This document shows positions 37,696 to 55,401 of a stretch of 64,000 bases of DNA, in pieces. Below the pieces are notes generated by a model. The model had not been told where the DNA came from and searched no databases. It saw nothing but the letters and a program-made list of their open reading frames with translations. Positions within the stretch are counted from its first letter, which is position 1. Every line of letters begins with the position of its first letter. This DNA is from Streptomyces sp. NBC_01591. GTDB lineage: Bacteria > Actinomycetota > Actinomycetes > Streptomycetales > Streptomycetaceae. The position numbers were made by a program, and so were the translations under genes. The DNA lies in contig NZ_CP109327.1 of assembly GCF_035918155.1 (NCBI RefSeq), forward strand, positions 8,432,001-8,496,000, written 5' to 3'.

Positions 37696-38667
37696 TCAGC
37701 TCGTGGAGGCGGCGGAAGGCCATGCCTCAGCATGCTTTTCGTGCCGCCGGAACCATTCGACGGTGCGTTCCAGGCCCTCGCGCAGGGGGACGGGTTCGAC
37801 CTCGGGGAAGAGGCGGAGCAACCGGGAGTTCTCCGCGTGGGAGTGCCGCACGTCCCCCGGGCGAGGGGACACGTATTGCGGATTCAGTGGAGTCCCGAGG
37901 ACCGCTTCCAGCTCCTCGATCAGTTCTCCGAGCGAAGTGCGCGTGCCGTAGGCGAGGTTCACCGGTTCGGCGGAGACGACCTTTCGCAGTGCCGCTCGGG
38001 TGAGCACGCGGCAGACGGTCTCCACGTAGGTGAAGTCGCGGCTCTGGCGGCCGTCGCCGTGCACGACGACCGGGCGACCGGTGGTCAGCGCGCTGATCCA
38101 GGCGGGCACCACTGCTGCGTAGGCGTGCCCGGCGGCCTGACGGGGTCCGTACACGTTGAAGAAGCGGAACGGCAGGACCGGCAGGTCGTAGCAGTGGTGG
38201 AAGGCGGCCAGATACGCCTCGGAGGCCAGTTTGCTCACCGCGTAGGGGCTGAGGGGGACAGGACGCAGGTCCTCGTGCTTGGGGATACCGGGATTGGCGC
38301 CGTAGACGGAGGACGAGGAAGCCGCGATCACCTGCGCCGCGCCTGCGCGCCGGGCGGCCTCCAGGACGGTGAGCGTGCCCGTGGCGTTGGCGTGGTGGCT
38401 GGCGAGGGGATTCTCCACCGACCGGGGCACGGAGGGAAGGGCGGCGAGATGCACGATCGAATCCATGCCCTGGAACGCCCGGTCGAGGAGGGGGCCGTCC
38501 AGGACGCTGCCCTCGGTGAAGTGCACATCGAGTCCGGCGAGGTTGTCCTTGAACCCGGTGGACAGATCGTCCACGACCCGCACTTCGGACACCTCGCTGT
38601 GCCGGGTGAGGGCATGTGCGAGATTGCTGCCGATGAAGCCGGCACCTCCGGTGATCACGATCTTCAC
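37696..38667 (-). CDS. NAD-dependent nucleotide-sugar epimerase/dehydratase
   Basis: 323 residues, extended SDR. NAD motif KIVITGGAGFIGSNLAHAL at the N-terminus, Ser in IAASSSSVYGANPG, Tyr/Lys in YAVSKLASEAY, and the sugar-nucleotide loop FFNVYGPRQ. Similar to UDP-glucose/UDP-glucuronate 4-epimerases. I chose GTG 38667 because it sits 8 nt after GGGAG and gives the standard MKIVITGG opening; two GTGs upstream are possible. Directly follows the UDP-sugar dehydrogenase gene (21 bp), so together they would oxidise and epimerise a UDP-sugar. Confidence 0.9.
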   Translation of the reverse strand: MKIVITGGAGFIGSNLAHALTRHSEVSEVRVVDDLSTGFKDNLAGLDVHFTEGSVLDGPLLDRAFQGMDSIVHLAALPSVPRSVENPLASHHANATGTLTVLEAARRAGAAQVIAASSSSVYGANPGIPKHEDLRPVPLSPYAVSKLASEAYLAAFHHCYDLPVLPFRFFNVYGPRQAAGHAYAAVVPAWISALTTGRPVVVHGDGRQSRDFTYVETVCRVLTRAALRKVVSAEPVNLAYGTRTSLGELIEELEAVLGTPLNPQYVSPRPGDVRHSHAENSRLLRLFPEVEPVPLREGLERTVEWFRRHEKHAEAWPSAASTS

Positions 38668-38688
38668 GCTCACCACTCCCGATCAGAG

Positions 38689-39984
38689 TCAGAGGACGTC
38701 GATATTGTCGCCGCCGAGCCGTCGGCGGCAGTCCAGTACATAGGCGGAGCATGCGGCAATGAGGTCGTAGTCGAACGCGTCGTGATCGGCGAGCAGGAGC
38801 ACCGCGTCAGCGGCCGACAGCTCGCCGGCACCGGCCGTCACCCTGAGGACTCCGTCCAGTACCCCGGAAACCGGGGGCACCGACTGGGCGACATGCGGAT
38901 CTGCCGCGGTGACGTCCGCCCCCAGGGCGAGGAGGAGTTCGGCGATACGCGCGGCGGGGGTTTCGCGGGCGTCGCTGGTGTTCGCCTTGTAGGCAAGTCC
39001 CAGCAGCAGCACGCGGGAGCCCTTGACCGCCTTTCCGCGCCGCTCGAGCGCTTCTGCCAGCCGCCCCACCACGTAGTCGGGCATGTGGCTGTTCACGTCA
39101 TTGGCGAGTTCGACGAAGCGGAAGGTACGACCGGCCGCGCGCTCGGCCCACCAGGACAGATAGGACGGGTCGATGGGCAGACAGTGCCCGCCGACGCCCG
39201 GGCCGGGAAGGAAGCGCAGGAACCCGTGGGGTTTCGTCGCGGCCGCATCGATCGCTTCCCACACGTCGACGCCGAGGTCGTGGGCGAACGTGGCGAGTTC
39301 GTTGACCAGGGCGATGTTCACGTGGCGGAAGGTGTTCTCCAGCAGTTTGGCCATCTCTGCGGTCCGGCAGCTGCTGACCGGCACCGTCGTGTCCACGATG
39401 GAACCGTAGAAGTCCGTGATGGACTCCAGTGAGGCCGCGTTCACCCCGGAGACCACCTTGGGGGTGTTCTCCAGGCGCCAGCGTGTGTTGCCGGGGTCTA
39501 TGCGCTCCGGGCTGTACCCGAGATGGAAGTCCCGGCCCGCGACCAGGCCGGACGCTGTCTCCAGGAGAGGCGCGACAAGTTCCTCGGTCGTCCCGGGGTA
39601 GGTGGTCGACTCCAGTACGACGGTGGCTCCCACCCGGAGGAACCCGCTCAGCATCCGGGCCGAGTCGACGATGTGCGACAGGTCGGGCAGTCCGTCGCTC
39701 AGGGGTGTGGGCACGGTGATGAGCGCGATGTCGAAGCCCTCGCAGTCGGCCGGGTCCCGGCCGGCCCGGTAGGCCCCGGATGCCAGCAGCGGGGCAAGCC
39801 GTGCGGAGGAGACGTCCTCGACGTACGAGTCTCCGGCCAGGAGGCGGCCGACCCGCTCCTTGTCCACGTCGTGTCCGACGACCTCGTACCCGGATTCTGC
39901 GGCTCGGACCGCCAGCGACAGCCCCACGTAGCCCTGCCCGACGACGACCACGCGGCCGAGACCTTCAGGTGCGGTGGGATTCAC
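38689..39984 (-). CDS. Nucleotide-sugar dehydrogenase (UDP-ManNAc/UDP-GlcNAc or UDP-Glc 6-dehydrogenase family)
   Basis: 431 residues in three domains: NAD-binding (VVVVGQGYVGLSLAVRAAE, first 30 residues), central UDPG-MGDP domain with catalytic Cys at about residue 268 in GPGVGGHCLPIDPSYLSWW, and C-terminal UDP-binding domain (LLLGLAYKANTSDARETPAA). The motif GGHCLPIDP is that of UDP-N-acetyl-D-mannosamine/glucosamine dehydrogenases (WecC/CapL-like) rather than plain UDP-glucose enzymes. GTG 39984 follows GGGGGGAAGG. It makes a uronic acid sugar nucleotide for a polymer or glycoside. Confidence 0.9.
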   Translation of the reverse strand: MNPTAPEGLGRVVVVGQGYVGLSLAVRAAESGYEVVGHDVDKERVGRLLAGDSYVEDVSSARLAPLLASGAYRAGRDPADCEGFDIALITVPTPLSDGLPDLSHIVDSARMLSGFLRVGATVVLESTTYPGTTEELVAPLLETASGLVAGRDFHLGYSPERIDPGNTRWRLENTPKVVSGVNAASLESITDFYGSIVDTTVPVSSCRTAEMAKLLENTFRHVNIALVNELATFAHDLGVDVWEAIDAAATKPHGFLRFLPGPGVGGHCLPIDPSYLSWWAERAAGRTFRFVELANDVNSHMPDYVVGRLAEALERRGKAVKGSRVLLLGLAYKANTSDARETPAARIAELLLALGADVTAADPHVAQSVPPVSGVLDGVLRVTAGAGELSAADAVLLLADHDAFDYDLIAACSAYVLDCRRRLGGDNIDVL

Positions 39985-40127
39985 CCTTCCCCCCTGGTCG
40001 CGCGCCCTCGGGGACGGGTTCTCACGGGTCGCCGGCTCTGCGGTGCGGTTCCTGTGGGGCCGTTCCGGCTGCATGCGCCGGGCCGTACTGGCATAGGTAT
40101 TCCCCTCCGGGTGTTCGCCCCCATGGA

Positions 40128-40160
40128 GTGGCTCCGGGCAGTCGAACTGCCCGGAGCCAC
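40128..40160. terminator. Hairpin terminator after the dimethylformamidase-like gene
   Basis: A perfect 14-bp stem (GTGGCTCCGGGCAG and its complement) around a TCGAA loop. It lies 63 bp past the stop at 40223 on the minus strand and before the sugar dehydrogenase gene, so the glycosyltransferase/DMFase pair and the dehydrogenase/epimerase pair are probably separate transcripts. Confidence 0.75.
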
Positions 40161-40222
40161 CGGTGCGTTGGTGCCGGGCCGGACGGTGGCGCGCGTCCGG
40201 TCCGGTGCGGCGGTGTCCGGCC

Positions 40223-41767
40223 TCAGGTGAGCAGGGTGATCACATTGCGGGTGATGGCGCGTATCCGTGGGTCCAGGCGCAGTAGCCGTGGCCAGTCGGT
40301 GGTGGCCGCGTTGAAGACCGTTCCGCCCCTGGTGTAGAACCCGAAGGTCGCGGCCCTCCTCGGGTCGGTGTTCTCGCGAGCGGTGGTTTTCCATCCGGAT
40401 TCCGGGGCGGTGGGAAGATCCGCGACGCCCAGGATGGTGAAGTCGGCGGGTGTGCCGTCGCTTCCGGTCGGGACGGCCGGCCCGTGGATGTCGCGCCGGT
40501 ACGCGGCTCCGTCGCATTCGTAGCCCACGAGGGAGTGTTCGGCTCCGAGGATTTCGCCTTCACGCAGTCCGGTGCCGGCGAAGACAGGGTGCCCGGTGTG
40601 CTGAACGGTGAAGCCCAGTTCTTCGCGCGGACCGTCCCAGTGGCCGCCGCCGTTGCGGTAGCTGACGCCGATGAGCAGGTTCTCGGGTTCGGTCTCCCAC
40701 CAGTGGTCGGGGGCGCCTCGCATACGGTCGACGTCGGATCCCTGGGGGACCCCGGGAGGGTACTTGGCACAGCTGATGGCGGTGCCGTCGTCATTCGGTG
40801 TGACCCGCCACCAGCAGGTGTTGGCCCCGAAAACAGCGATGTTGCCACCCCGGTCGCGGAAGGCGGTGACGTTCCTGCGGGTGCGCGGGCTCCAGTACTC
40901 GTCGTGTCCCGCGGACAGCAACAGCCGGTATCCGTCGGTGAGATGAGGAGATTCGTCGAGGTCGAGGTCGGTGCAGTAGTCGGCGGTGAACCCAGATGCC
41001 TCCAGCCACGAGATGAAGGGCGCGTCCCAATGCGCGAAGGTCTGGCGGGGTGTTCGCGGGTCGTGTGCGTCGGGCATGCCTTTCACCGGGCCGCCGATCC
41101 CGCCGCCCGGGCGCCGCAGAGTGACGGTGCGGTGCGCCTCGTCACGTGGAAGGGCACCGTACAGACTCGCTCCTCCGCTTCTGTTGTAGGCGTGGTAGGT
41201 GAAGACGGGCACCTTGTACAGGATGTGAGCGGTCCGGGCGGGTTCGCGGGCCGTCACCACGAAGAGCGTCCGGGAGTGCCGGGCGTCCAGGGCTTCGGCA
41301 TCGGCCGGGGGCGGGGCGGTCGGTCGGGCGGTAGCGGGGCCGAGCACCGCGACGTAGACACCCGAGGGCCACTCTTCGGGAATCGTGAAGTCGTGGCAGG
41401 GCCAGTTCCAGTCCTCGTCGTGGCTGCCCGGGCTCGCATACCGGCCCGGACCTTCGGTACCGCCCATGAGACGCGGGCGGGCACCGCAACGGTAGAAGTC
41501 GGCCCGGAACCGTTCCGCGCGGGTCGAGACGTGCAACCGCAGGGTCTCTCCGGCGCGAACGCTCGGCCGGCCGGGATATCCGTCCACGACCACGTCGGCG
41601 GAGGGCTCCGGAGTACTGGTCCGTACACGGGGCAGGCCGATGCCGACGGCATGGCTCCTGGGTCCGCCGGTGTGGCTGGTGCGGCCCGCACCGCTCTCGG
41701 GACGTGCCGCCGCCACTGTCGTGGGGCCGGGGCTGTGCACGGCGTCCTTTCCTGCTGCCGCCCTCAT
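40223..41767 (-). CDS. N,N-dimethylformamidase beta-subunit-like protein
   Basis: 514 residues. An N-terminal beta-rich region (VVVDGYPGRPSVRAGETLRLHVS, then FYRCGARPRL) is followed by the large C-terminal domain of dimethylformamidase large subunits, with segments VPVFTYHAYNRSGGASLYG, GYRLLLSAGHDEYWSPRTR and NIAVFGANTCWWRV. Known members pair with a small subunit and hydrolyse formamides, but most homologues, including those beside glycosyltransferases, are uncharacterised. The ATG at 41767 overlaps the glycosyltransferase stop as ATGA. No signal peptide is evident. Confidence 0.75.
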   Translation of the reverse strand: MRAAAGKDAVHSPGPTTVAAARPESGAGRTSHTGGPRSHAVGIGLPRVRTSTPEPSADVVVDGYPGRPSVRAGETLRLHVSTRAERFRADFYRCGARPRLMGGTEGPGRYASPGSHDEDWNWPCHDFTIPEEWPSGVYVAVLGPATARPTAPPPADAEALDARHSRTLFVVTAREPARTAHILYKVPVFTYHAYNRSGGASLYGALPRDEAHRTVTLRRPGGGIGGPVKGMPDAHDPRTPRQTFAHWDAPFISWLEASGFTADYCTDLDLDESPHLTDGYRLLLSAGHDEYWSPRTRRNVTAFRDRGGNIAVFGANTCWWRVTPNDDGTAISCAKYPPGVPQGSDVDRMRGAPDHWWETEPENLLIGVSYRNGGGHWDGPREELGFTVQHTGHPVFAGTGLREGEILGAEHSLVGYECDGAAYRRDIHGPAVPTGSDGTPADFTILGVADLPTAPESGWKTTARENTDPRRAATFGFYTRGGTVFNAATTDWPRLLRLDPRIRAITRNVITLLT

Positions 41768-42906
41768 GACAGGGGGCCGGATCTCCCGGTGTTTGGCCGG
41801 TGGAGGCCCGCAAGGACGACATCGGCTCGGCGGCGCCAGGTATAGCGCTCCAGGACCTGCCGCCGGGCCTCGGCGCCGAGCTCTCGGCGCAGCGCGCCGT
41901 CGGTGATCAGCTCGTCCAGTGCTTCCGCCCAGGCGGCCGGGTCCTCGGGAGGCCGGAGCAGGCAGTTGACCCGGTCCTGGAGGACTTCGCGCAGAACCGG
42001 CAGATCGGAAGCGATCACGGGGCAGCCGTGGGACATGTACTCGAACACCTTCATGGGAGAGGCCCAGCGTCCGGTCTCGCTGAGCCGGCCCCACGTGTAC
42101 ACCTTCTGCTCGTAGGGGGCGAGGACGACATCGAAGAGGGCGTAGTAGCCCGGGAGCGCGGACGGCGGCCGGTGCCCGTGGAAGTACACGTGGGGGGATC
42201 GGCAGGCCTGTTCCCAGCGGGTGCGGTCCTCGTCGGTGCCACCGACCAGATGAAAGTCCAGGCCGGGAAACCGGTTCGCGAGCTCCAGGACGAGGCCGAT
42301 GCCGCGCCCGTCGTAAAGATGCCCGACGTAGCCGACGCGCGGTACGTCCGAGCGGCCCGGCAGCCGGGTGGTCCCGCTCGCCGCGGCGGGAGCGGGCGGA
42401 TCCGCGCAGTCGGGCGCGACGACGATGGGCAGGGTGCCCAGCGTCTCGTACTTCCGTTGCATATCGCGTGCGAGGACGTGGGTGATCACGACCACGCGGG
42501 ACAGCCGGGGCATCCGGAGGAGCGCTTCCTCGGTCCCGGCCGGGGACAGGTCTTCGCGCAGCTGGTGGACCTCGTACACGAGGGGCGCCAGATCGGAGAG
42601 AGTGGCCAGGGCGTAGGGGTCGCGTCCGTAGATGAGGTCGGGGGCAGGTCCGTTCGTCACCAGTTCCCGGACCGTCTCGGCGCGCCTCCAGTAGCCGGTC
42701 GGCGTGTAGGCGGGGCAGGGGACAAGGCGGATCGGGAAGCGGTGGTGGACGCCGTAGTAGGCGTACGGGTCCTCGTCCGAGCCGGGCATGGAGTAGAGGG
42801 TGACTTCATGTCCCGCGGCGGTGAACGCGTCGCACATGCGCATGACATGTACACCGTTGGCGAAGTAGGAGGGGATGCTGCCTCCGTGCATGTACGCGAT
42901 GCGCAT
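41764..42906 (-). CDS. Glycosyltransferase family 4 protein
   Basis: 380 residues, GT-B fold. The opening MRIAYMHGGSIPSYFANGVH gives the N-terminal acceptor domain; the GT1 domain has VPRVGYVGHLYDGRG and the nucleotide-sugar EX7E-like region SPMKVFEYMSHGCPVIASD. It transfers a sugar from a nucleotide donor to an unknown acceptor. It heads a two-gene unit with the DMFase-like protein. The nearby sugar dehydrogenase and epimerase may supply its donor (inference). Confidence 0.88.
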   Translation of the reverse strand: MRIAYMHGGSIPSYFANGVHVMRMCDAFTAAGHEVTLYSMPGSDEDPYAYYGVHHRFPIRLVPCPAYTPTGYWRRAETVRELVTNGPAPDLIYGRDPYALATLSDLAPLVYEVHQLREDLSPAGTEEALLRMPRLSRVVVITHVLARDMQRKYETLGTLPIVVAPDCADPPAPAAASGTTRLPGRSDVPRVGYVGHLYDGRGIGLVLELANRFPGLDFHLVGGTDEDRTRWEQACRSPHVYFHGHRPPSALPGYYALFDVVLAPYEQKVYTWGRLSETGRWASPMKVFEYMSHGCPVIASDLPVLREVLQDRVNCLLRPPEDPAAWAEALDELITDGALRRELGAEARRQVLERYTWRRRADVVLAGLHRPNTGRSGPLS

Positions 42907-43705
42907 GCCGGTCTACGCCCGCTCGGTTTCGTTCGCGGGCACCGCGTGGCAGACCGTGGCGTGGGGTCGGTGAGGCGTCGTGTCCGTCGAATCCACAGGC
43001 GTCTCCTCGTGATGGGCCGCGACGATGGGCAGTGTCACGCGGGTACTGCGGCAGTGGTCCGGTCGCCCGGATCGTGCGAGTCGGGTGGGGCGTAGCCGCT
43101 GCTGGGCGGGGGTGAACCACGCGCCGGGACAGGCGGTTCACATGGCTGTGCCGTACGGAGCAGGTGACGCATCATCATCGTGGCTGGTGTCGAGCATTCC
43201 AAGAGTGGCATTTCGGCCCTTCTTCGAGGCCGGATTTCTGCCGGTCCCCAGGGTCCGGAGAGGCCGGGGCGCGAGGCGGTGCTTCGCAAGGTGCCCATCC
43301 GCACGACGGCACCTCGGCACCCCCGTCCGGTGCTCCGTGCGGCAGGTCTTCCCAGCACCTTCCGGACAGAAGAGTGACCGAGGCGGAGGGGGTTGTCGCG
43401 CAAAGCGGGATGTGCGGTGTTGCGTCGGTCCGATGGGCGAGCGGCGGATTCAGCGCGAGTGTCCGGACCTTTCTGCCGGGCAGGAAGCAGCAGGTCGGGG
43501 CAGTCGAGCGGTCGTCGCCGCCGGTGTCCATGGTGTGCGGCGAAGACTGTGTCCGACCCTGCGGATCGTGGTCGGCACGGGGCGCCCCGTGTCCGTGGGG
43601 GCAGTTACTTCGCATCTTGTGATCACTTCAGAACCGTGCGTACCGTGGCAGCGCCGTGACTCCCCGTCAACGTCGGAGGAGCCGGTCATCCGAAGGGAGA
43701 TCGAT
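42907..43705. other. 799-bp non-coding stretch between the glycosyltransferase and the RiPP precursor
   Basis: All frames were read on both strands. Open frames exist but have neither ribosome sites nor recognisable motifs, and GC at third positions is not raised as in neighbouring genes. It should carry two divergent promoters and perhaps regulator sites. No clear dyad was found apart from a weak promoter near its right end. Confidence 0.5.
43617..43646 (+). promoter_or_regulatory. Possible promoter of the RiPP operon
   Basis: TTGTGA, 18-bp spacer, TACCGT, ending 59 bp before the precursor ATG. The match is weak but is the best in the region. Confidence 0.25.
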
Positions 43706-43780
43706 ATGCACGAGGAGATCGAGCAGATTCCCGAAGAAGAACTTCCCGACCTGGCGCTGATGATCGACGTACCCAGCTGA
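43706..43780 (+). CDS. Candidate RiPP precursor peptide, 24 residues
   Basis: A 24-codon gene with a good ribosome site (AGGGAGA, 6 nt before ATG). The N-terminal half is strongly acidic (seven Glu in the first twelve residues, IEQIPEEEL in the middle) and the C-terminus reads LALMIDVPS. Acidic leader plus short hydrophobic tail, and position immediately before HExxH and YcaO peptide-modifying genes, are what a ribosomal precursor should look like. It has no Cys or Thr and only one Ser, the last residue. It is unusually short, so most or all of it may be recognised by the enzymes. I do not know a named family for it. Confidence 0.6.
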   Translation: MHEEIEQIPEEELPDLALMIDVPS

Positions 43781-43794
43781 CGCTGCGTCGCTCC

Positions 43795-43823
43795 GGGCGA
43801 CGGGTCGGTCCGGCCCGTCGCTC
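43795..43823 (+). terminator. Hairpin between precursor and first modification gene (probable attenuator)
   Basis: GGGCGACGGG pairs with CCCGTCGCTC (10 bp with one G-T pair) around a 9-nt loop, 15 bp after the precursor stop and without a T-tract. Such stems behind short precursor genes let the precursor be made in excess over its enzymes. Confidence 0.45.
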
Positions 43824-43853
43824 GCCCCTACCGGCTTCATGGAGGTACGCACG

Positions 43854-44828
43854 GTGCGAGTGGAACCCGACGCACGCCAGAGCGCCGAGGAATGCTCCGC
43901 TTTGGCACACATGACCCGGTCGGCCCTGGAGCGGGCCGGATTGACGGTCTCCCCGAAGGAAGCCACGCACCCCGCGGTCATCGAAGCGGCACACATCGCA
44001 CAGTACGTCCTGCGGACCGGCCCGCCCGCTCCGGAACGCCTCGCCCGCCTCGGCGCCATGGTCGACCGGGCCCGGTCGGACATCACGGCATCATCCGCGT
44101 CCGCACTGCCATGGCCGGACCGGCTCACGGCACCAGGACCCCATCTGGAACGCAGCGTCGCCCGCGCAGTGAAGTCCATCCCGAGTCCGGGCGGAGAACC
44201 CGGCACACCACACGGCTCCGCCGTGGTCGGATGGCGCGAACACGAAGAGGCGGTCATCCGCGAGACGGCCGCCCTCCTGGCCGCCAACTGGCCCGGCGCG
44301 TACGCCGAGCTGAGGCAGATCCTGCTCCAGATCGCTCTTCTGGACGGACCTGCCATCGATGGCTTCACCGACTTCACCGTCCACGGTGCCGTCTTCATCC
44401 GGCGCAGCCGTCTCGCACCGGATCCGGACGGGCTGCCGGGGGCCGTCCGGCTCGCCGAGGCACTCGTCCACGAGGGCGCGCACACTCGGTGCAATGCCGC
44501 GTCCGTGGCGGCCCAGCCCTTCCTGCGGCCCCTGGACGACGACGGCCCGATGGTCCCCACGCCGCTCAGACTCGACCCCCGGCCGCTCACCGGGCTGTTC
44601 CAGCAGATGGTCGTCCTGGCCCGCAGCGTTCTGCTGTACCGGCATCTGCTGGCGGGGGACACGGCGGGCAGCAGCGCGGCCGCGACCGTCCGGGCCCGCC
44701 ACGGTCGACTGGCCTTCTCCGCAGCCGATGCGGTGCGCACCATGACGGAACACCGTGACATGCTCACCGACCACGGGAGAGCGGTACTGGAGGACACCGC
44801 CGAGGTGGCACGGGTGCGTGTCCGATGA
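43854..44828 (+). CDS. HExxH-motif RiPP enzyme, aKG-HExxH-type peptide beta-hydroxylase family
   Basis: 324 residues. The diagnostic motif is HEGAH (His206, Glu207, His210) in AEALVHEGAHTRCNA, followed by the family segment TPLRLDPRPLTGLFQQMVVLAR. Proteins with this pair belong to the HEXXH modification family (TIGR04267-like), found beside YcaO and other RiPP genes and described as 2-oxoglutarate-dependent peptide beta-hydroxylases rather than proteases. GTG 43854 sits 7 nt after a perfect GGAGGT; the in-frame ATG at 43839 lies just upstream of that ribosome site and is less likely. Stop overlaps the YcaO start as ATGA. Confidence 0.82.
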   Translation: MRVEPDARQSAEECSALAHMTRSALERAGLTVSPKEATHPAVIEAAHIAQYVLRTGPPAPERLARLGAMVDRARSDITASSASALPWPDRLTAPGPHLERSVARAVKSIPSPGGEPGTPHGSAVVGWREHEEAVIRETAALLAANWPGAYAELRQILLQIALLDGPAIDGFTDFTVHGAVFIRRSRLAPDPDGLPGAVRLAEALVHEGAHTRCNAASVAAQPFLRPLDDDGPMVPTPLRLDPRPLTGLFQQMVVLARSVLLYRHLLAGDTAGSSAAATVRARHGRLAFSAADAVRTMTEHRDMLTDHGRAVLEDTAEVARVRVR

Positions 44829-46015
44829 GTGTGTCTCCCTGGACACCTCAGGTCTTCGCCCCCTACGCGCCCTGGCCGCAAGTCGTCTTCGCGCGCGTCG
44901 CGGCCCGCTCGCCGCAGTTCGACGCCGTCTGCGCCGCCGGAGACCGCCCTGTCGTCGTGGGCAGCGCGGCCGGGCACCACACGGAACGCGTTGTGGCGAG
45001 TGCGCGCGGCGAACTCCTGGAACGCGTCGGCAACATCCTCGCGGGCCGTGCGGCCGAGGCGGACGCCGCGGTCGTGGCGAGCCACAGCGAACTGCGGCGC
45101 AAGGGGATACCCGCCGTGGACCCCGCCGAGCTCCTGCCGGAAGACGCGCCAGTCAGCCTTCACGACTCACGTGACAACCGCCGGCTCTGGGTGCTCGGAC
45201 GCTCCCTGCACTCCGGAGCCGACATCCACGTACCCGCCGGGGCGGTCTTTCTGCACCACCGGGCGCCGACAGGCTGCGACCCCGGCCCCGGCGTCGGTTC
45301 CACCGGCGTCGCCGCGCATCCGGATCCGGATGCGGCCACGCAGCACGCCGCCTGGGAGGTCCTGGAACGCGACCTCGTCCGCAGAAGCTGGTACGGACCG
45401 TCCTGTGCCCCCGAGGTGATTCCGGCCGCCGGTCTGCCACAGCCGCTGGCGGAACTCCTGACGGGGACGGACGTGATCGCCACCGCGCTCGACGTCCCGG
45501 CGCCCACCGGATCCCGCTGTGTCGCGGTGTCGCTCCACGCGCCGGACCGGACCCGTCAGACCTTCGGAGCCCGCTGCGGCCCGGACGACGGCAACATCGA
45601 CCCGCTGATCGAGAAGGCCGCCTACGAGGCACTCATGGTGCGCTGGAGCATGAACACGCCGGTGGCAGAAGGAACGTGGGCCCGCTGGCAGGGCGCCGAG
45701 GCCCCGGACTCCGCCGTCAAGCACGCACTGTGGACCTTTCACCGGCAGGACAGCCTCCGACTGTGGACGGCGCGTCCCCCGGAGAGCAGTGCTCGGCCGG
45801 AACCGGCTCCGGGCGGACCCGAGCGGTCCGGCACCGACGTGCTGTCCGCCCACACCGGCCGGGACCTCGTCCTCGTGGACACCACCTGCGGACCGGCGCG
45901 CACCCTGGGCTCGGCGGTGCTACGGGTCGTGGCCCCGGGCGCCCGAGCCCTGCCCACCGGCCCGCACGGTGGAAGCGACCTGCCCCTCACCCCCGCCCCG
46001 CATCCCTTCGGATGA
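44825..46015 (+). CDS. YcaO-domain cyclodehydratase, stand-alone type
   Basis: 396 residues. YcaO ATP-site elements are in order: SARGELLER (Glu63, Glu66), AAWEVLERD (Glu178, Glu181) and IEKAAYEAL (Glu263, Glu268). The chain ends in PAPHPFG, a PxPxP tail (residues 390-394) of the kind found in azoline-forming YcaOs. YcaO enzymes use ATP to activate a peptide-bond oxygen, giving azolines, amidines or thioamides. No E1-like or TfuA partner is in the window, so it must act alone or with the HExxH protein, whose gene it overlaps (ATGA). Confidence 0.8.
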   Translation: MSVSPWTPQVFAPYAPWPQVVFARVAARSPQFDAVCAAGDRPVVVGSAAGHHTERVVASARGELLERVGNILAGRAAEADAAVVASHSELRRKGIPAVDPAELLPEDAPVSLHDSRDNRRLWVLGRSLHSGADIHVPAGAVFLHHRAPTGCDPGPGVGSTGVAAHPDPDAATQHAAWEVLERDLVRRSWYGPSCAPEVIPAAGLPQPLAELLTGTDVIATALDVPAPTGSRCVAVSLHAPDRTRQTFGARCGPDDGNIDPLIEKAAYEALMVRWSMNTPVAEGTWARWQGAEAPDSAVKHALWTFHRQDSLRLWTARPPESSARPEPAPGGPERSGTDVLSAHTGRDLVLVDTTCGPARTLGSAVLRVVAPGARALPTGPHGGSDLPLTPAPHPFG

Positions 46016-46110
46016 TCCTGCGGTACTCGCACAGCCCGCTCAGCGCCCATGTCCACCCGGCCCGGTCCGCACCGCGGCGACCGGACCGTCCGCAGGCCGA
46101 GGAGACCGGC

Positions 46111-46929
46111 ATGTCCACGTCCTACGACCACCCGAAACCCACGACAGCAGCCGACCTCGACGCTGCATCGGACAGCGGGCGCGACCACCTTGCCACCGCA
46201 GCAGGCGGTTCCGGGTACGCCGACATCCACGCCGCCGACTACGACCGGTGGTTCGCCAAACCGGGAATCACCGGTGCGACCGTCGATGCCCTCGCGGCTC
46301 TCGCCGGTGACGGGCCCGTACTCGAACTCGGCATAGGCACCGGCCGAGTCGCGCTGCCGCTGGCCGCACGCGGCTTCCACGTCCACGGCGTCGAAGCGTC
46401 GGAGGCGATGGCGGCACGGCTTCGGTCGAAACCCGGCGGCGACAGGATTCGGGTCACTCACGGAGATTTCGCCGAGGTACCTGTCGACGGCGCGTTCTCC
46501 CTCATCCACGCCGTCGGAGGTACGTTCTTCGAGCTCGCGAGCCGCGAAGATCTGCAGCGCTGCCTGACCGCTGTGGCCGGCCACCTGGAACCGGCGGGCG
46601 TATTCGTCCTCGACGCGCACGTGCCCGAAGCCCTCGCTGTCGCCGCGGCGTCGGGCGTGCCCGAGGTCGTCTCCGAGACCGACGAGCATCTGATCCTGTG
46701 CCATCGCAGGATCGACCCGTCCACCCAGACGTACCAGTCCCACTACCTCGTCCACGAGGCGGACCGGACCCGTCACCTGCGGGTGCGCTTCCACTATGCG
46801 TCACCGGGCGAACTGGACCTCATGGCGGAGCGGGCCGGACTGCGGCTGCGCCGGCGCCGGGGCTCATGGGCCGGCGGGCCGTTCACCCACGACAGCACCT
46901 ATCACGTCTCCGTCTACGAGCGCTGCTGA
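46111..46929 (+). CDS. SAM-dependent methyltransferase (class I)
   Basis: 272 residues. A polar N-terminal extension of about 45 residues precedes YADIHAADYDRWFAKPG. The SAM motif I is PVLELGIGTGRVALPLAARG (about residues 70-89), motif II VHGVEASEAM and the later DGAFSLIHAVGGTFF. The methyltransferase-25/11 family methylates small molecules or peptides. ATG 46111 follows GAGGAG. It belongs to the RiPP operon by spacing and orientation; the 95-bp gap before it is the largest between the enzyme genes. Confidence 0.85.
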   Translation: MSTSYDHPKPTTAADLDAASDSGRDHLATAAGGSGYADIHAADYDRWFAKPGITGATVDALAALAGDGPVLELGIGTGRVALPLAARGFHVHGVEASEAMAARLRSKPGGDRIRVTHGDFAEVPVDGAFSLIHAVGGTFFELASREDLQRCLTAVAGHLEPAGVFVLDAHVPEALAVAAASGVPEVVSETDEHLILCHRRIDPSTQTYQSHYLVHEADRTRHLRVRFHYASPGELDLMAERAGLRLRRRRGSWAGGPFTHDSTYHVSVYERC

Positions 46930-47012
46930 TGCAGGCCCGCAGCGCCCCTCGCCCCACGTGGCCGTCAACTCCTCACGGCCGCCCGCCGAAAACCATCCCG
47001 GAGCAGTCGTGA
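46929..47012 (+). CDS. Possible 27-codon gene bridging the methyltransferase and P450 genes
   Basis: The ATG overlaps the methyltransferase stop by one base (TGATG) and the stop overlaps the P450 GTG (GTGA), so it fills the 79-bp gap exactly. The peptide is basic and Pro-rich (six Pro in 27 residues). About 80% of codons end in G or C, somewhat below neighbouring genes. It has no clear ribosome site and would depend on coupling. It could be a chance frame. Confidence 0.3.
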   Translation: MQARSAPRPTWPSTPHGRPPKTIPEQS

Positions 47013-48211
47013 CAGACGAAGATCCCGGTCGCCCGGTCCCCACCGCGGACTTTCCCTTCCCGCACCATGACGGGCTCGGTCCCCTCCCGGAGTTGGCCGC
47101 GCTGCGCCGCGACGCTCCGTGCGCCCGGATCGTACTGCCCAGTGGCGACCCGGCATGGCTGATAACCCGGTACGGCGACGTGCGCACCGTGCTGGCCGAT
47201 CCGCGCTTCAGCCGTACACGTGCCACCCGGGGAGCGGGGCCGCGCATGGCACACGTCCCCACCCTGCCGGACTCGATCCTGGCCGCGGACCCTCCGGAAC
47301 ACACCCGGCTGCGCAAGCTGGTCGCCCCGGCCTTCACCGCCCGCCGCGCCGAGGCCATGCGGGCGTCCGTGGCCCGGCTCGTGGGAGAGCTCCTCGACGA
47401 ACTCGCCGCACACGACCGCCCGGCCGACCTGGTCGCGCTGTTCGCCCGGCCGCTTGCGCTGACAGTCATCTGCGATCTCCTCGGTGTGCCGCGACGGGAC
47501 GGCGACCTGCTCGACGCCTGGTGCGACACCCTGCGCAACCTCACCGCCATCGCCGACACCGAGGTCACCGCCGCCGTCGGTGAGATGACCGGATACCTCA
47601 CCGAGCTCGTCGCCACCAAGCGCCGCCATCCGGGCAATGACGTCCTGAGCACCCTGATTGCCGCACGCGACGAGGGCGACCGGCTCAGTCAGGACGAACT
47701 GATCTCCTTCTGCTTGGTACTGCTCGCCGGAGGCTACGGCACCACCGCCGACCGGCTCGCCGGTATGGTGCACCTCCTGCTGGACGAACCCAGGCTGTAC
47801 CACCGGCTTCGACACGAACCCGGGATGGTCCCCAAGGCCGTCGAGGAACTGCTGCGTTACGCCCAGACCAATGTCCAGGCCAACCTTCGTGTCGCCACCG
47901 AGGAGGTCCGGCTCAGCGGTGTCAGGATCGCCGAGGGCGAAGCCGTGATGGCGGTGAACTCGTCGGCCAACCACGACGAGACCGTCTTCGACGCCCCCGA
48001 CCTGCTGGACCTCGACCGCGACCGCAACCCCCATCTGGGGTTCGGGCACGGTGTCCACCACTGCGTCGGGGCGCAGATCGCACGCGTACAACTCCAGGAG
48101 GCCCTGACCGGGCTCCTGCACCGGTTCCCGGGACTGCGGACCGCGGCACCGCCGGTATGGAAGGCCGGGCTGAAGACCAGGGCTCCCCGCACCCTGCCCG
48201 TGACCTGGTGA
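47009..48211 (+). CDS. Cytochrome P450
   Basis: 400 residues, bacterial class I P450. I-helix oxygen motif LLAGGYGTTADR, ExxR in VEELLRYAQ, haem loop FGHGVHHCVGAQIARVQLQ with Cys352 as ligand. The N-terminal part PEHTRLRKLVAPAF is standard. GTG 47009 follows GGAG. It needs ferredoxin and reductase, not encoded here. In the RiPP cluster it could oxidise or cross-link the peptide. Confidence 0.93.
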   Translation: MTDEDPGRPVPTADFPFPHHDGLGPLPELAALRRDAPCARIVLPSGDPAWLITRYGDVRTVLADPRFSRTRATRGAGPRMAHVPTLPDSILAADPPEHTRLRKLVAPAFTARRAEAMRASVARLVGELLDELAAHDRPADLVALFARPLALTVICDLLGVPRRDGDLLDAWCDTLRNLTAIADTEVTAAVGEMTGYLTELVATKRRHPGNDVLSTLIAARDEGDRLSQDELISFCLVLLAGGYGTTADRLAGMVHLLLDEPRLYHRLRHEPGMVPKAVEELLRYAQTNVQANLRVATEEVRLSGVRIAEGEAVMAVNSSANHDETVFDAPDLLDLDRDRNPHLGFGHGVHHCVGAQIARVQLQEALTGLLHRFPGLRTAAPPVWKAGLKTRAPRTLPVTW

Positions 48212-48300
48212 GCGGGGTGCTCCCGGAGCCTTCGAGGCTCGTCAGCGCCGGGCACCGTATTGGTTCTGTGGCTCTGCACACGAATCCGGAAGGTTCACAC

Positions 48301-49128
48301 ATGCAGTGCCTCACCCTCAACAACGGCGTTTCCATCCCCCAGATCGGCCTCGGTGTCTGGCCGCTGACGGACGGACAGGCCTACACCGCCGTATCCCACG
48401 CCCTGATCACCGGGTACCGGCACATCGACACCGCCCGCATCTACAACAACGAGGCGGGCGTCGGCCGTGCGGTCCGCGATGCCGGGGTCCGCCGTGAGGA
48501 CATCTTTCTCACCACCAAACTGTGGAACGCAGACCAGGGCTACGAGGCCGCACTGCGCGCTTTCGACGCGAGCCTCCAGCGCCTGGGTACGGACTACGTC
48601 GACCTCTATCTGATCCACTGGCCCGTACCGGAACAGGATCTGTACGTCGAGTCGTACAAGGCTCTGGAACGGATCCACGCCGATGGACGTGCCAGGGCGA
48701 TAGGCGTGTCCAACTTCACCGCCGCCACTCTGGACCGCCTGCTGGCGAAGACCGACATCGTGCCGGCCCTCAACCAGATCGAGCTTCACCCCTACTTCCC
48801 GCAAGGCCGAATGCGCAGGGTCTGCGCCGAGCGGTCCGTCACCACGGGGGCCTGGAGCCCGCTCGCCCAGGGTGGTGTACTGCTCGCCGAACGTACGCTG
48901 GCCCGTATCGCCGAGACGCACGGGAAGACCCCGGCCCAGGTCGTCATCCGCTGGCATCTCCAACTCGGCCACGTGGTGATCCCCAGATCCGCCACGCCCA
49001 CTCGAATCGAGGAGAACTTCAGGGTCTTCGACTTCGACCTCGGCCCGCAGGAGTTGCGCGACATCACCGCCCTCGACAACGGCGGCCGTATCGGCCCTGA
49101 CCCGGACGCGGCCGGCCATCAGGGCTGA
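48301..49128 (+). CDS. Aldo/keto reductase (AKR5-like)
   Basis: 275 residues. The catalytic tetrad is complete: Asp in GYRHIDTARIY, Tyr in the same segment (IYNNEAGVG), Lys in LTTKLWNADQ and His in LYLIHWPVPEQ. NADPH-binding C-terminal IPRSATPTRIEENF. ATG 48301 follows GGAAGG. It lies 89 bp after the P450 and may be the last gene of the RiPP operon or an independent housekeeping-type reductase; sequence does not decide. Confidence 0.92.
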   Translation: MQCLTLNNGVSIPQIGLGVWPLTDGQAYTAVSHALITGYRHIDTARIYNNEAGVGRAVRDAGVRREDIFLTTKLWNADQGYEAALRAFDASLQRLGTDYVDLYLIHWPVPEQDLYVESYKALERIHADGRARAIGVSNFTAATLDRLLAKTDIVPALNQIELHPYFPQGRMRRVCAERSVTTGAWSPLAQGGVLLAERTLARIAETHGKTPAQVVIRWHLQLGHVVIPRSATPTRIEENFRVFDFDLGPQELRDITALDNGGRIGPDPDAAGHQG

Positions 49129-51710: not shown

Positions 51711-51965
51711 CTAGACAGCGATGCGGTCGTTGACCAGGCTCAGCAGCTCTCCGAGGGTGCTCACCTCGATGATCTGCTCGTCGGGGATGGCCACCCCGTG
51801 GTCGACCTTCAGCCTGGCCGCAGTCTCCATGAGGGCCAGCGAGTCGTAGCCGAGTGCGGTGAGCGAGGTGTCGGCGATGTCGCCGTGCAGCGCGGCGTTC
51901 TCCTCCCCGCCGGCGCACGAGACGAGGATGCCGCGCAGTTCGTCGATGGTCATCAACTTGGACAT
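51711..51965 (-). CDS. Type II PKS acyl carrier protein
   Basis: 84 residues. The phosphopantetheine site is Ser42 in ALGYDSLALMETAARL, in the usual LGxDSLxxxE context. The start KLMTIDELRGILVSCAGGEE is typical of aromatic-polyketide ACPs. It carries the growing poly-beta-keto chain. Starts 2 bp after the chain-length-factor stop (51968). Confidence 0.95.
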   Translation of the reverse strand: MSKLMTIDELRGILVSCAGGEENAALHGDIADTSLTALGYDSLALMETAARLKVDHGVAIPDEQIIEVSTLGELLSLVNDRIAV

Positions 51966-51967
51966 GT

Positions 51968-53185
51968 TCAGCTTCCGTTCTGGGGGAGGCGGATGACGGT
52001 GGCGGCGTTGAACCCCCAGCGGCCCCGGGCGAGGACCAGGGCGGTTCCCACCGCCGCCGGTCGGGGCTCGCCGATGACGAGGTCAAGGCCGTACTCGTCG
52101 GGCACCGAAGCGGTCCCGAATGTCGGGGGAATCACGCTGTCCTGCATGCTCATCAGGGCCGCGACGACGTCGAGGACGCCGCCGCCGGAGAAGAGCCTGC
52201 CGGTCAGGGACTTGGGGGCGGTGACAGGGACGCCGCGGACCCCGAACAGGTCCCGCAGGGCCTGCGCCTCGGCGCGGTCCAGGGCCGGCAGGCCCGCCGC
52301 ATCGGCGAACACGACGTCCACCGCGTCCGGGCCGAGCCCCGCGTCGGCCAGTGCGAGCCGCGCGGCCCGACCCAGACCCGGCGGGCGTCTGCTGCCGGGG
52401 GCCGGATCGAAGGTGGCCGCATAGCCGACGATCTCACCGTAGACACGGGCCCCTCGTGCGCGGGCCGCCCCGGCGTCCTCCAGGACGCAGATCGCGCCGC
52501 CCTCGCCGGGTACGTGTCCGGCCGCGTGCGAATCGAAGGGGCGGTACGCCGTGGCCGGGTCGGGGTCGACGCTGACCCGGCCGCCTGCCAGGTGGGAGGC
52601 CCAGCCCCACGGGTCGAAGGTGGAGTCGACTCCACCGCAGACCACGAGCGGCACACCGGTACGGACGACCCGTCGTGCCTGCCCCAACGCGTCGATCCCG
52701 CCCGCCTGTTCGGCGACCAGAGCGATGGAGGGTCCGCGCATCTTGTGCCTGATGGAGATCTGGCCGGTGTTCACCGCGTAGAACCAGGCGAAGGACTCGT
52801 ACACGCTCACGTGTTCCGGCCCCTGGCTCCACAGCTTCTTGAACTCCCGGTGGGTGAAGTCGAATCCGCCCGAGGCATTGGCCGTCACGACGCCCATGTC
52901 GTAGTCGGTCATGGCGGAGGTGTCCACGCCGGCGTCCTCTATGGCGCCCTGGGCGGCGATCAGGGCGAGACGGGTGGAGACATCGGTCTGCGACATCAGC
53001 CTGCTGGGCAGGTGCTGCGCCGGATCCACACCGTCCACCAGCCCGGCCAACCGCGCCGGGAAGCCCGAGGTGTCGAACCGGTCCAGCTCGCCGATGCCGC
53101 TGCGGCCGGTCAGGGTGGCTGCCCAGAATTCCTTGACGCCGACGCCGTTCGGCGCGACCACGCCCAGCCCGGTGATCACGCTCAT
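51968..53185 (-). CDS. Type II PKS chain length factor (ketosynthase beta subunit)
   Basis: 405 residues, full-length KS fold. The Cys of the KS active site is replaced by Gln160 in [14 protein letters not shown], the hallmark of chain length factors. Other segments: [16 protein letters not shown] at the start, [23 protein letters not shown], and [18 protein letters not shown] where KS-alpha would have the His motifs. It needs a complete KS-alpha partner; the one encoded upstream is truncated. ATG 53185 overlaps that remnant's stop (ATGA). Confidence 0.94.
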
Positions 53186-53577
53186 GCGGCCTCCCGGTCC
53201 GGCCGGGTGAGGACCATCGCGCTCTGGAAGCCGCCGAAGCCGCTGCCGACCGTCAGCACGGTGTCGGTGCGGTGCTCGCGCGCCACATTCGGCACGTAGT
53301 CCAGGTCGCACTGCGGATCGCTCACGTGCAGGTTCGCCGTCGGCGGCACCGTGTGATGCTCCATCGCCAGCAGCGAGGCGGCGATCTCGATCGAGCCGAC
53401 GGCCCCGAGCGAGTGCCCCACCATCGACTTGATCGAGCTGATCGGCGTCTTGTACGCGTACTCGCCGAGGCTCCGCCTGAACGCCGCGGTCTCGTGCCGG
53501 TCGTTCTGCTTGGTGCCCGAGCCGTGCGCGTTGATGTAGTCGACCGCGGACGGATGCACCTCTGCCTGTGAGGACAT
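53182..53577 (-). pseudogene. Ketosynthase alpha (KS-alpha) reduced to its C-terminal third
   Basis: The open frame encodes 131 residues that match only the end of type II KS-alpha: [20 protein letters not shown] (first catalytic His), [14 protein letters not shown] (second His region), and [15 protein letters not shown] complete KS-alpha has about 420 residues, so the N-terminal 290 or so, with the catalytic Cys, are absent. The region just upstream (53584-53827) contains no KS sequence in any frame. Stop overlaps the CLF start as ATGA, showing the original operon order KS-alpha, CLF, ACP. Confidence 0.85.
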
Positions 53578-53827
53578 CTGCACGCGGCCGGAAGTCGGAC
53601 AAGGCGGCGGGCGGCACCCTCTCCCGGTGGACGCGCTCCGGGGCCCGAGCCTTCCTGCCGCGGGCGGCCACCGTTTTTTTCCTGGTCACGCGACGCCGGT
53701 GATCCGCGGACCCGCCCCGGCCCGCGGCGTCGGCGGCCCGTGGCCGTTCTGCCGGGGTACGACACCTCGTTCCACCGGTTCACCGCTTTCTGCGCGCCCG
53801 CCCTGCGCCCACCACTCGGAGGACAGC

Positions 53828-54649
53828 ATGATCGTGCACACCCTCATCTACCGGTTCCCGCCGGAGGCCGATGCCGAGGACATCCGTCAGTTCTTCGAGG
53901 GGCTGGGCGATCTCGCGGTCGGTTCCGGTCTGGTCTCGGCCTTCGGCTGGAAGCCGCACGTCCTGCTCCCCGTCGACGAGCAGAGCAAGGGGATGACTGC
54001 GACGCACATCGCGCAGTTCTCCTGCGACGACGTGCAGACCCTGCAGGTGTTCTCCGAGCGGCCCGTCGTGCACGAGTTCATCAGCAAGTGGCGCGGAAAG
54101 CTCAACTACGAGGCCGCGTACGCAAACCACGAGCAGATGCTGCCGTCGAGCAGCGGAAACGGACCTTCCATGTTCCACACCGAGCACACCGTGACCGTCG
54201 AGGCGAACGCGGATGTCGTCTACGCAGTGCTGGCCGACATCGAGGGCTACGCCAAGCTGTTCCCGCCCACCGAGACCTCGACGATGCTGGAGGAGACCGA
54301 GACCTGCCAGATCGCCCGTCTGGTGGTCGACGTCAGCGGGCAGCGGCAGAGCTGGGTGACCCGGCGCGACCTCGACCGCGACCACCGCACCATCGCCTAC
54401 CGTCAGCTGGACAACGCCCCGATGATCGAGTTCATGGGCGGCGAGTGGCGCGCCCTGCCGCTCGACGACAACCGCACGCAGCTGGTCATCACCCACGACT
54501 TCGCGGCCCGCCCCACCGAGGCCGTACCCAGCCAGGAGCAGGCGTCCACGCTGCTGCGGGCCGCCGTCGACCGCAACAGTCACGCCGACCTCGACGCGGT
54601 CCGCAAGGAGGCCGAGCGGCGCGCGCAGGTCGTCGGGAGCCCCGCGTGA
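53828..54649 (+). CDS. Fusion of a Dabb (stress-responsive A/B barrel) domain with a polyketide aromatase/cyclase (SRPBCC)
   Basis: 273 residues. Residues 1 to about 105 form a Dabb ferredoxin-like domain (MIVHTLIYRFPPEADAEDIR, then ERPVVHEFISKWRGKLN). From about 115 the START/SRPBCC aromatase domain follows (FHTEHTVTVEANADVVYAVL, AKLFPPTETSTMLEETETCQ, RQLDNAPMIEFMGGEWRALP). Both folds act as ring-forming cyclases or aromatases on poly-beta-ketone chains. ATG 53828 follows GGAGGA. The stop overlaps the next cyclase as GTGA. Divergent from the KS/CLF/ACP genes. Confidence 0.85.
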   Translation: MIVHTLIYRFPPEADAEDIRQFFEGLGDLAVGSGLVSAFGWKPHVLLPVDEQSKGMTATHIAQFSCDDVQTLQVFSERPVVHEFISKWRGKLNYEAAYANHEQMLPSSSGNGPSMFHTEHTVTVEANADVVYAVLADIEGYAKLFPPTETSTMLEETETCQIARLVVDVSGQRQSWVTRRDLDRDHRTIAYRQLDNAPMIEFMGGEWRALPLDDNRTQLVITHDFAARPTEAVPSQEQASTLLRAAVDRNSHADLDAVRKEAERRAQVVGSPA

Positions 54650-55401
54650 CCCAGCGCCTGATCGACCTCAGCGTGCCGACCGTGGACGGCCCGAGCGAGG
54701 CGACACCGGTAGAGGTGGAACTCCTCGACCACGCCGCGGCGCCAGCCGCACTGGGGCTGACACCCGAGGATTTCCCCGAGGGCGAGTCGATCTCCAACGA
54801 GACGGTCACCCTGACCACCCACACCGGCACCCACATGGACGCCCCCCTGCACTACGGGCTCACCAGCGGAGGACGTCCGGCCGCCGCCATCGGCGACATC
54901 CCGCTGGAGTGGTGCTACGCGCCCGGAGTCCGCCTCGACCTGCGGCACGTGCCACCGGGCACCGGCATCACCGCCGCGGACATCGAAGACGCGCTGGCGA
55001 AGATCCCACACCAACTCCGCCCCGGCGACATCGTGTTGATCTGGACCGGTGCGGACCGGCTGTGGGGAACGGACGCATACCGTGCCGAACACCCCGGTAT
55101 GACAAGGGAGTCCACGGCCTGGCTGGTCGAGCGCGGTGTCAAGGTGATCGGCATCGACAGCTGGGGCTTCGACCGGCCCTTCGGATCGATGATCGGCGAC
55201 TACCGGGAGACCGGCGACAACAAGGTCCTCTGGCCGGCTCACCTGTACGGGCGCGAACACGCCTACTGCCAATTGGAGAAGCTCGCCCACCTGGACGAGC
55301 TGCCCGCTGCCACCGGGTTCACCGTGGCCTGTTTCCCCATCAAACTCACCGGACTCGGCGCCGGATGGACGCGGGTGGTCGCCATCGTCGAGGACGAGTG
55401 A
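54646..55401 (+). CDS. Cyclase-family protein (PF04199, kynurenine-formamidase-like fold)
   Basis: 251 residues. The family metal motif HxGTHxDxPxH is seen as THTGTHMDAPLHYG (about residues 62-75), with RLIDLSVPTVDG at the start and the later KVIGIDSWGFDRP. Members hydrolyse formylkynurenine or act as isatin hydrolases; in aromatic polyketide clusters they serve as late cyclases. GTG 54646 overlaps the aromatase stop. Probably a ring-closing enzyme of the same pathway. Confidence 0.87.
   Translation: MTQRLIDLSVPTVDGPSEATPVEVELLDHAAAPAALGLTPEDFPEGESISNETVTLTTHTGTHMDAPLHYGLTSGGRPAAAIGDIPLEWCYAPGVRLDLRHVPPGTGITAADIEDALAKIPHQLRPGDIVLIWTGADRLWGTDAYRAEHPGMTRESTAWLVERGVKVIGIDSWGFDRPFGSMIGDYRETGDNKVLWPAHLYGREHAYCQLEKLAHLDELPAATGFTVACFPIKLTGLGAGWTRVVAIVEDE

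Follow-up and report, generated by a model that had tools for sequence, protein, structure and literature searches.

What can an oxygenase and a YcaO enzyme make from a peptide of 24 residues whose conserved part contains no Ser, Thr or Cys? The question is raised by a locus of Streptomyces sp. NBC_01591, which lies in a stretch of 64,000 nucleotides (contig NZ_CP109327.1; C1:8432001-8496000 of the genome called G000 here, 10.25 Mb). The whole stretch is called the window, and coordinates given without a locus or genome label are counted from its first letter. An initial annotation, made from the letters of the window, had described a cluster for a ribosomally synthesised and post-translationally modified peptide (RiPP) at 43706..48211. 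It consisted of a short acidic precursor, an HExxH hydroxylase, a YcaO protein, a methyltransferase and a cytochrome P450. The comparison of related genomes strongly supports the RiPP reading, and the locus appears to be the gene cluster of a RiPP family without previous description. The alpha-ketoglutarate-dependent HExxH (aKG-HExxH) protein is called HEx, the class I methyltransferase at 46111-46929 MT1, and a second methyltransferase of the relatives MT2. Loci and genomes carry L and G numbers.

Results

Thirty-three distinct related loci were compared, of which 28 were reached through HEx and 5 more through YcaO. The precursor gene (43706..43780, plus strand) encodes the 24 residues MHEEIEQIPEEELPDLALMIDVPS. 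Its ribosome-binding site AGGGAG is read from the sequence at 43694..43699 on the same strand, six bases before the ATG, and the 24-codon gene with a good ribosome site was therefore described correctly at the outset. Upstream of the precursor, GAAGGGAG is retained in 14 of 19 alignment rows, among which L029 and L034 are the same contig. It is absent in L039-L041, and GAAGGAG stands instead in L043 and L044. A profile of 14 precursors was run against 291 Streptomyces genomes, a draw overlapping the 295-genome draw used for HEx. It gave 13 matches at E<=2.1e-11, and the next best was at 0.084. All 13 genomes belong to the 14 with a strong HEx match; the fourteenth (G225, locus L045) carries a degraded peptide remnant, MAAELPERALM... 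In six homologues of 24 codons, 4, 1 and 9 of 24 sites vary at the first, second and third codon positions. The corresponding numbers for the flanks are 14, 18 and 19 over 72 upstream bases and 19, 21 and 22 over 72 downstream bases. Because this variation is low against that of the free flanks, the peptide is under purifying selection. A chance open reading frame (ORF) was ruled out by the profile search together with the codon-position variation. The initial annotation had proposed a search of relatives and had said that the lack of a homologous small gene in related clusters would speak against the precursor. Intact homologous genes were found in 32 of the 33 genomes.

The 32 intact precursors represent 27 distinct peptides of 24-34 residues. 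Every one contains the block LP[ED][LFY][AG]LM[VI]D[VIL]P, whose L, P, L, M, D and P are invariant in the 27 peptides. Position 17 is Ala in 26 of them and Gly in 1. No Ser, Thr or Cys occurs within the block in any of the 27, and 6 have none anywhere. The residue after the last Pro of the block is Ser in 15, Asp in 10 and Phe in 2. Ser24 was rejected as a general target of YcaO because Asp or Phe stands at that place in 12 of the 27. The C-terminal tail is variable, for example S, D, SED, DQD or FEE.

HEx (43854..44828, plus strand, GTG start) belongs to the aKG-HExxH-type peptide beta-hydroxylases and contains both LVHEGAH and TPLRLDPRPL. Its score against TIGR04267 is 54.4 bits (cutoff 40), and no Pfam family matched it. 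All of the 40 aligned HEx sequences match TIGR04267 at E<=0.001. The fold is the same as that of ChlH and SjiH over 280 residues, with the HExxH iron site and the conserved Arg motif of the ChlH type. A Cys-Asn pair after HExxH is invariant in the 40 aligned sequences and is lost in the HEx of L045. The HExxH motif and the P-x-R-x-D-x-R-P..GL segment are common to HEx and the known aKG-HExxH beta-hydroxylases (ChlH/ChlBH, SjiH, PflC/PosC, PesO and BpmH). Hydroxylation by enzymes of this kind has been reported on His, Asp, Phe, Gln and Pro (PMC13060819, partial text).

The ycaO gene (44825..46015, plus strand) overlaps that of HEx at ATGA and encodes a stand-alone YcaO, an ATP-dependent amide-activating enzyme (PF02624; 88.8, cutoff 25.7). 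It had been suggested that hidden Markov models might place HEx and YcaO in non-RiPP families; both fall above the cutoffs of families that modify peptides, as the initial annotation had supposed. The structure model of YcaO has a predicted local distance difference test score (pLDDT) of 88.7, and its Foldseek neighbours are LynD (1.9e-15), the M. jannaschii YcaO (1.0e-14) and MusD (1.4e-14). E63, E66, E178, E181 and E268 are invariant in 36 aligned sequences. We assign these five residues to the ATP site by the known motif and not by a measured superposition. The PxPxP tail claimed for YcaO is present in the window as PAPHP. It is not a family feature, being found in 8 of the 36 aligned YcaOs (the window and 7 close ones), and PHP[FL]G is the C-terminal end in all 36. 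With PxPxP in so few of them, the tail gives no argument for azoline formation. The score of YcaO against the model TIGR03604 for SagD and the thiazole/oxazole-modified microcins (TOMM) was 73, below the cutoff of 219.25. Scans of 10 proteins at 37696-49128 showed no E1-like/ocin-ThiF, TfuA or nitroreductase domain, in agreement with the earlier remark that an E1-like partner was not seen. An ordinary YcaO azoline within the conserved block is unlikely because the block has no Ser, Thr or Cys. The earlier expectation of an azoline-modified peptide, taken in the ordinary sense, is thus not supported.

MT1 (46111..46929, plus strand) is a class I methyltransferase and probably an N-methyltransferase. 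Its nearest solved structures are CcbJ (3.8e-34), YunM (1.1e-18) and the cypemycin N-terminal methyltransferase (7e-17); the daptide methyltransferase model gave 74.1 against a cutoff of 175. It stands near YcaO in 30 of the 33 genomes. The three exceptions are L045 and L104, where no match was obtained, and L120, which is ended by the contig end. The ten best MT1 matches in 159 Streptomyces genomes come from the ten HEx-positive genomes, and the best match outside them is 49% identical (E 2.7e-57). The P450 (47009..48211, plus strand; PF00067), a tailoring enzyme, contains FGHGVHHCVGAQ. With it the gene order first described, from the HEGAH protein to the P450, is confirmed in the sequence. 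P450 is found in 17 of the 33 genomes and MT2 in 8, never together; 8 have neither, and among these L030 and L120 stop at a contig end.

HEx and this YcaO family occur together in all of the 33 genomes. YcaO lies less than 10 kb from HEx in 31 of them and elsewhere in the same genome in 2. In this split state HEx stands alone (L100 of G1015 and L101 of G926), and the precursor is directly before YcaO on the other contig (L119 and L120). In L102:9258-11501 (G332) HEx and YcaO are fused in a single ORF of 748 residues without a stop. No ATG, GTG or TTG is present there in any frame from the end of HEx to the start of YcaO homology. The precursor is just upstream of the fusion, its motif beginning 138 bases before HEx. 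Usually ycaO is in a different frame from HEx, with an offset of 2 in 26 of the 30 loci having both. The gene order of L098 and L099 is YcaO-MT1-MT2-precursor-HEx. Because fusion, relocation and rearrangement are all accompanied by joint retention, a joint function is better supported than it would be by plain neighbourhood. These arrangements indicate that HEx and YcaO probably work as a pair.

The GT4 glycosyltransferase, assigned by Pfam, is encoded at 41764..42906 on the minus strand. In 23 of the 33 genomes a GT4 lies close to the precursor, HEx or YcaO, with both sides and both orientations represented. At E<=1e-30, GT4 is present in 8 of 10 HEx-positive and 0 of 149 HEx-negative Streptomyces genomes (Fisher 5.3e-12); the test assumes independent genomes, which these are not. 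By gene content, the 24-residue peptide, HEx, YcaO and MT1 are one evolving unit, which includes GT4 where it is present. The cluster reaches upstream on the minus strand at least as far as GT4, and its upstream edge is probably at 37696. A cluster ending at the P450 or starting at the precursor was rejected from the neighbourhood tables and the distribution of GT4. The span of 43706..48211 was therefore too narrow, as the minus-strand sugar module at 37696-42906 had been missed. The minimal set of precursor, HEx, YcaO and MT1 is seen in L102, L105 and L106. A protein of 130 residues without a Pfam match is encoded after MT1 at L105:12221-12610, and a like gene is present in L106.

Discussion

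The peptide, HEx, YcaO and MT1, with GT4 where it is present, very probably make a RiPP. We propose the following course. The acidic N-terminal residues, ending near ..EELPE, would serve as the leader. HEx, using Fe(II) and 2-oxoglutarate, would beta-hydroxylate the Asp that is invariant in ALM[VI]D[VIL]P (Asp21 with Met as 1); the next candidate is an invariant Pro. YcaO with ATP would activate the preceding backbone amide, and the attack of the new hydroxyl would give an oxazoline-type ring at a position where none could otherwise be formed. MT1 would N-methylate the product, probably at the N terminus exposed by leader removal. The P450, or the second methyltransferase that replaces it in 8 relatives, may make a further change, and GT4, where present, would then attach a sugar. 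The steps differ in how firmly they can be put. The chance that N-methylation is performed by MT1 is even, and action of HEx at the invariant Asp falls slightly short of that. The exact site and ring as drawn are doubtful. Equally tentative is the relay as a whole, in which the beta-hydroxyl put on Asp by HEx becomes the nucleophile of YcaO and leads to a carboxy-oxazoline or a derived, N-methylated and glycosylated product. The block offers nothing to an ordinary azoline-forming YcaO; we infer that either HEx makes the nucleophile or the product is an amidine. The hydroxyl introduced by HEx would not be only a sugar handle, because HEx is kept in L037, L038, L042, L046, L102, L105, L106 and L108, which have no GT4 nearby.

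If the relay is true, it would be new to RiPPs and would bring a residue other than Ser, Thr and Cys into the heterocycle chemistry of YcaO. Predictions of YcaO products from sequence would then have to allow for a wider range of substrates. The family is a clean test case for whether an oxygenase can create the nucleophile needed by YcaO, and the natural fusion and the precursor of 24 residues make laboratory reconstitution simple.

Several points weigh against the proposed pathway. It is known here from genes, and no product, mass or enzyme activity was seen. The residue targeted by HEx is not readable from the sequence. The Ser after the last Pro in 15 of the 27 distinct peptides could be an ordinary target of YcaO. 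No conserved protease was seen in the cluster, which leaves leader removal unexplained. Relatives of MT1 are widespread: 115 of the 159 Streptomyces genomes have one at E<=1e-30, 105 of them HEx-negative. Because the presence of this family alone says little, the membership of MT1 rests on its position and on the ten best matches. The fusion in L102 could hide an assembly error, and its first in-frame GTG is 14 residues inside the YcaO homology. The G926 assembly, which supplies one of the split loci, is fragmented and has 7% contamination, and its YcaO contig stops within the gene. The dependence of YcaO on HEx was checked from the side of YcaO in six loci. In L045 (G225) HEx and YcaO are present, yet there is a remnant peptide and no MT1 match. 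L104 has no MT1, P450 or GT4 match; behind its ycaO stands the end of an epimerase gene, and the middle of the cluster is apparently deleted. Finally, GT4 was not found near the cluster in 10 of the 33 genomes.

L045 and L104 can be described as two decayed clusters. A subtilase with an I9 propeptide is encoded downstream of the P450 in L037 (Pfam), and, by family clustering, a subtilase stands at the same place in L038; these are candidate leader proteases in the two loci.

The alternative that survives best is that YcaO builds an N-terminal amidine ring after leader removal, in the manner of streptamidine and bottromycin, and that HEx decorates a side chain only. We consider it nearly as likely as the relay. 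A stand-alone YcaO and a core without Ser, Thr or Cys fit it well, since a free amine suffices, and streptamidine precursors with motif B likewise have no heterocycle-forming residues at the corresponding site (PMC8442711, partial text). However, the amine must first be freed, and a conserved protease or hydrolase was not seen in the cluster. MT1, apparently an N-methyltransferase, would compete for the same amine. Moreover, the retention of HEx with YcaO in 33 of 33 genomes and their fusion in L102 are left unexplained by an amidine.

The near-invariant Ala17 suggests another role for HEx. In a C-terminal A-R-M-D tail, Ala is the residue targeted by PosC, and PflC is also capable of hydrolysis at this place (PMC12636437, partial text). 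HEx might likewise cleave the backbone oxidatively at Ala17 of A-L-M-x-D, so that no protease would be needed to release the leader; the residues at this position, Ala in 26 of the 27 distinct peptides and Gly in the other, agree with such a cleavage. We consider it improbable. According to the partial text, PflA and PosA lose a C-terminal tail that is discarded, whereas the piece lost here would be the conserved block. The motifs resemble each other over a short length, perhaps by chance, and Arg, Met and Asp are individually dispensable in PosA (same partial text). An ATP-dependent peptidase activity of YcaO, as in MusD, would release the core and would leave the chemistry to HEx, MT1 and P450. 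Among the nearest folds is MusD (7u58), whose title names a YcaO with ATP-dependent peptidase activity, and a conserved protease was not seen in the cluster. LynD and the archaeal YcaO are equally near, however, and a fold does not tell the reaction; this explanation has a similarly small probability. The amidine, oxidative release and peptidase explanations are not all mutually exclusive. That the 24-residue peptide is no precursor and instead a small partner of the enzymes, with a regulatory or structural role, is very improbable: it is conserved over its full length with little core variation, and many RiPP precursors vary more in the core, but it is placed with a peptide-modifying HExxH protein and YcaO, stands directly before YcaO where HEx has moved away (L119 and L120), is a remnant only where HEx has lost conserved residues (L045), and ends in a variable tail as expected of trimmed residues.

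RiPPs, HExxH hydroxylases, YcaOs and glycosylated RiPPs are already known kinds, and the locus was compared with the systems nearest to it. The ChlH and SjiH chains come from radical S-adenosylmethionine proteins, and PflC, PesO and BpmH stand in clusters of multinuclear non-haem iron-dependent oxidases (MNIO). The partner of HEx is instead YcaO, once as a fusion. The streptamidine (ami) family likewise has a stand-alone YcaO and a short precursor without a core rich in Ser, Thr and Cys. The major subset of it has AmiB (E1-like by fold), the AmiC hydrolase, the AmiE dehydrogenase and FecBCDE genes, and its precursors have 31-89 residues with an ALV motif (PMC8442711, partial text). Genes of the AmiB, AmiC, AmiE and Fec types were not seen among the 10 window proteins by Pfam scans, for which no ami protein was used as query. 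All 27 distinct precursors here, with 24-34 residues, carry ALM or GLM and not the ALV of streptamidine.

The bottromycin cluster has methyltransferase and P450 genes, and the core of its precursor is at the N terminus with a follower. Its YcaO acts without an E1-like partner, as YcaO appears to do here; there are two YcaOs, and Cys is converted to thiazoline (PMC8442711, partial text). Unlike it, the present cluster has one YcaO, a conserved block without Cys and an acidic N-terminal part. The linear azol(in)e-containing peptide (LAP) and TOMM systems of the SagD type share the YcaO fold and the Glu residues of the ATP site with our locus. They differ in that TIGR03604 is below its cutoff here, no E1-like or nitroreductase protein is among the 10 scanned, and the block has no Ser, Thr or Cys. 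The TfuA partner of thioamide RiPPs was not found among the same 10 proteins. Membership in the streptamidine, bottromycin, LAP and thioamide families was considered against these features. With glycosylated RiPPs the locus shares, by its genes, a linked glycosyltransferase, the GT4.

No paper on this peptide family was found in titles and abstract openings, a search to which subscription journals and supplements were mostly outside the scope. Six core strings were absent from 5.39 million texts. A conserved HEx-YcaO pair acting on a core free of Ser, Thr and Cys was not described in the titles and abstract openings searched, and the RiPPER supplements of PMC8442711 may list these peptides.

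Sampling of genomes

The 33 loci comprise 14 strong HEx matches from the 295-genome draw, 5 loci from a YcaO scan and 14 from two later overlapping draws. They were read as sets of 19 and 14. L029, the same contig as L034, and the unrelated L047 and L048 were left out. The three HEx surveys gave 14 strong matches in 295 genomes and 10 of 343 and 14 of 345 positive genomes, corresponding to a frequency of about 3-5% of the sampled genomes. In the first survey 24 genomes matched at E<=1e-3, of which 10 were dropped as weak partial matches with 29-38% identity. Two of the dropped genomes (G289 and G085), read as L047 and L048, had neither YcaO nor precursor there. The YcaO scan gave 6 loci, one on the same contig as G100, hence 5 new ones. 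A survey at the level of the class found HEx in 4 of 394 genomes, namely G000, G330 and G332, which were already counted, and G649. The last was dropped, as its HEx match was partial and weak and its locus L058 gave no tblastn match. The GT4 and MT1 surveys covered 159 Streptomyces genomes, as far as listed G000-G158, within the 295-genome draw. Seven candidates per genome were scored for HEx and twelve for GT4, and the negatives are not absolute. Gene calling by GC frame often took the wrong strand within HEx and YcaO; the families were therefore re-tested by tblastn. The named homologues come from Streptomyces, Embleya, Kitasatospora and Streptacidiphilus.

Sugar module and neighbouring genes

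Upstream of the precursor, three further genes follow GT4 on the minus strand. The first encodes a DMFA2_C protein, like the beta subunit of N,N-dimethylformamidase (40223..41767; PF20254, 238 bits); 10 of the 33 genomes have one close to the cluster. This protein could be the missing amide hydrolase. In L120 the gene of a DMFA2_C protein precedes the precursor by a short distance, on the plus strand. The second is a nucleotide-sugar dehydrogenase (38689..40074; TIGR03026, 374.6 bits against a cutoff of 189.8), which probably supplies an acidic sugar; 7 of the 33 genomes have it close to the cluster. The third is a NAD-dependent sugar epimerase like TviC and WbpP (37696..38676; PF01370), whose solved relatives include WbgU and WbpP. 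An epimerase of this kind is near the cluster in 9 of 33 genomes, and another kind in 11 more. TviB and TviC are among the families matched by the dehydrogenase and the epimerase, with scores under the cutoffs of these two equivalogs. On these genes, glycosylation of the product in the window is likely. The sugar may be guessed to be an acidic amino sugar derived from an N-acetylhexosamine. A second GT4 copy, 61-63% identical to that of the window, lies about 6-7 kb upstream of HEx in two relatives (G066:C1:144386-145492 and G100:C1:128889-130010), where it perhaps serves a disaccharide. Sulfotransferases and a PhyH-type oxygenase are encoded in several relatives, with the domains checked in L033 and L039.

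Downstream of the P450 is an aldo/keto reductase (AKR; 48301..49128, plus strand; PF00248), a possible accessory gene. It was rejected as a core gene, since of the 33 genomes only that of the window and those of 6 close relatives, 7 in all, have it; a match of 32% in L033 is a different AKR. Beside the cluster, at 51711-55401, there are type II polyketide-like genes: a carrier protein and a ketosynthase are encoded on the minus strand, while the plus strand has genes for polyketide cyclase and the Cyclase family.

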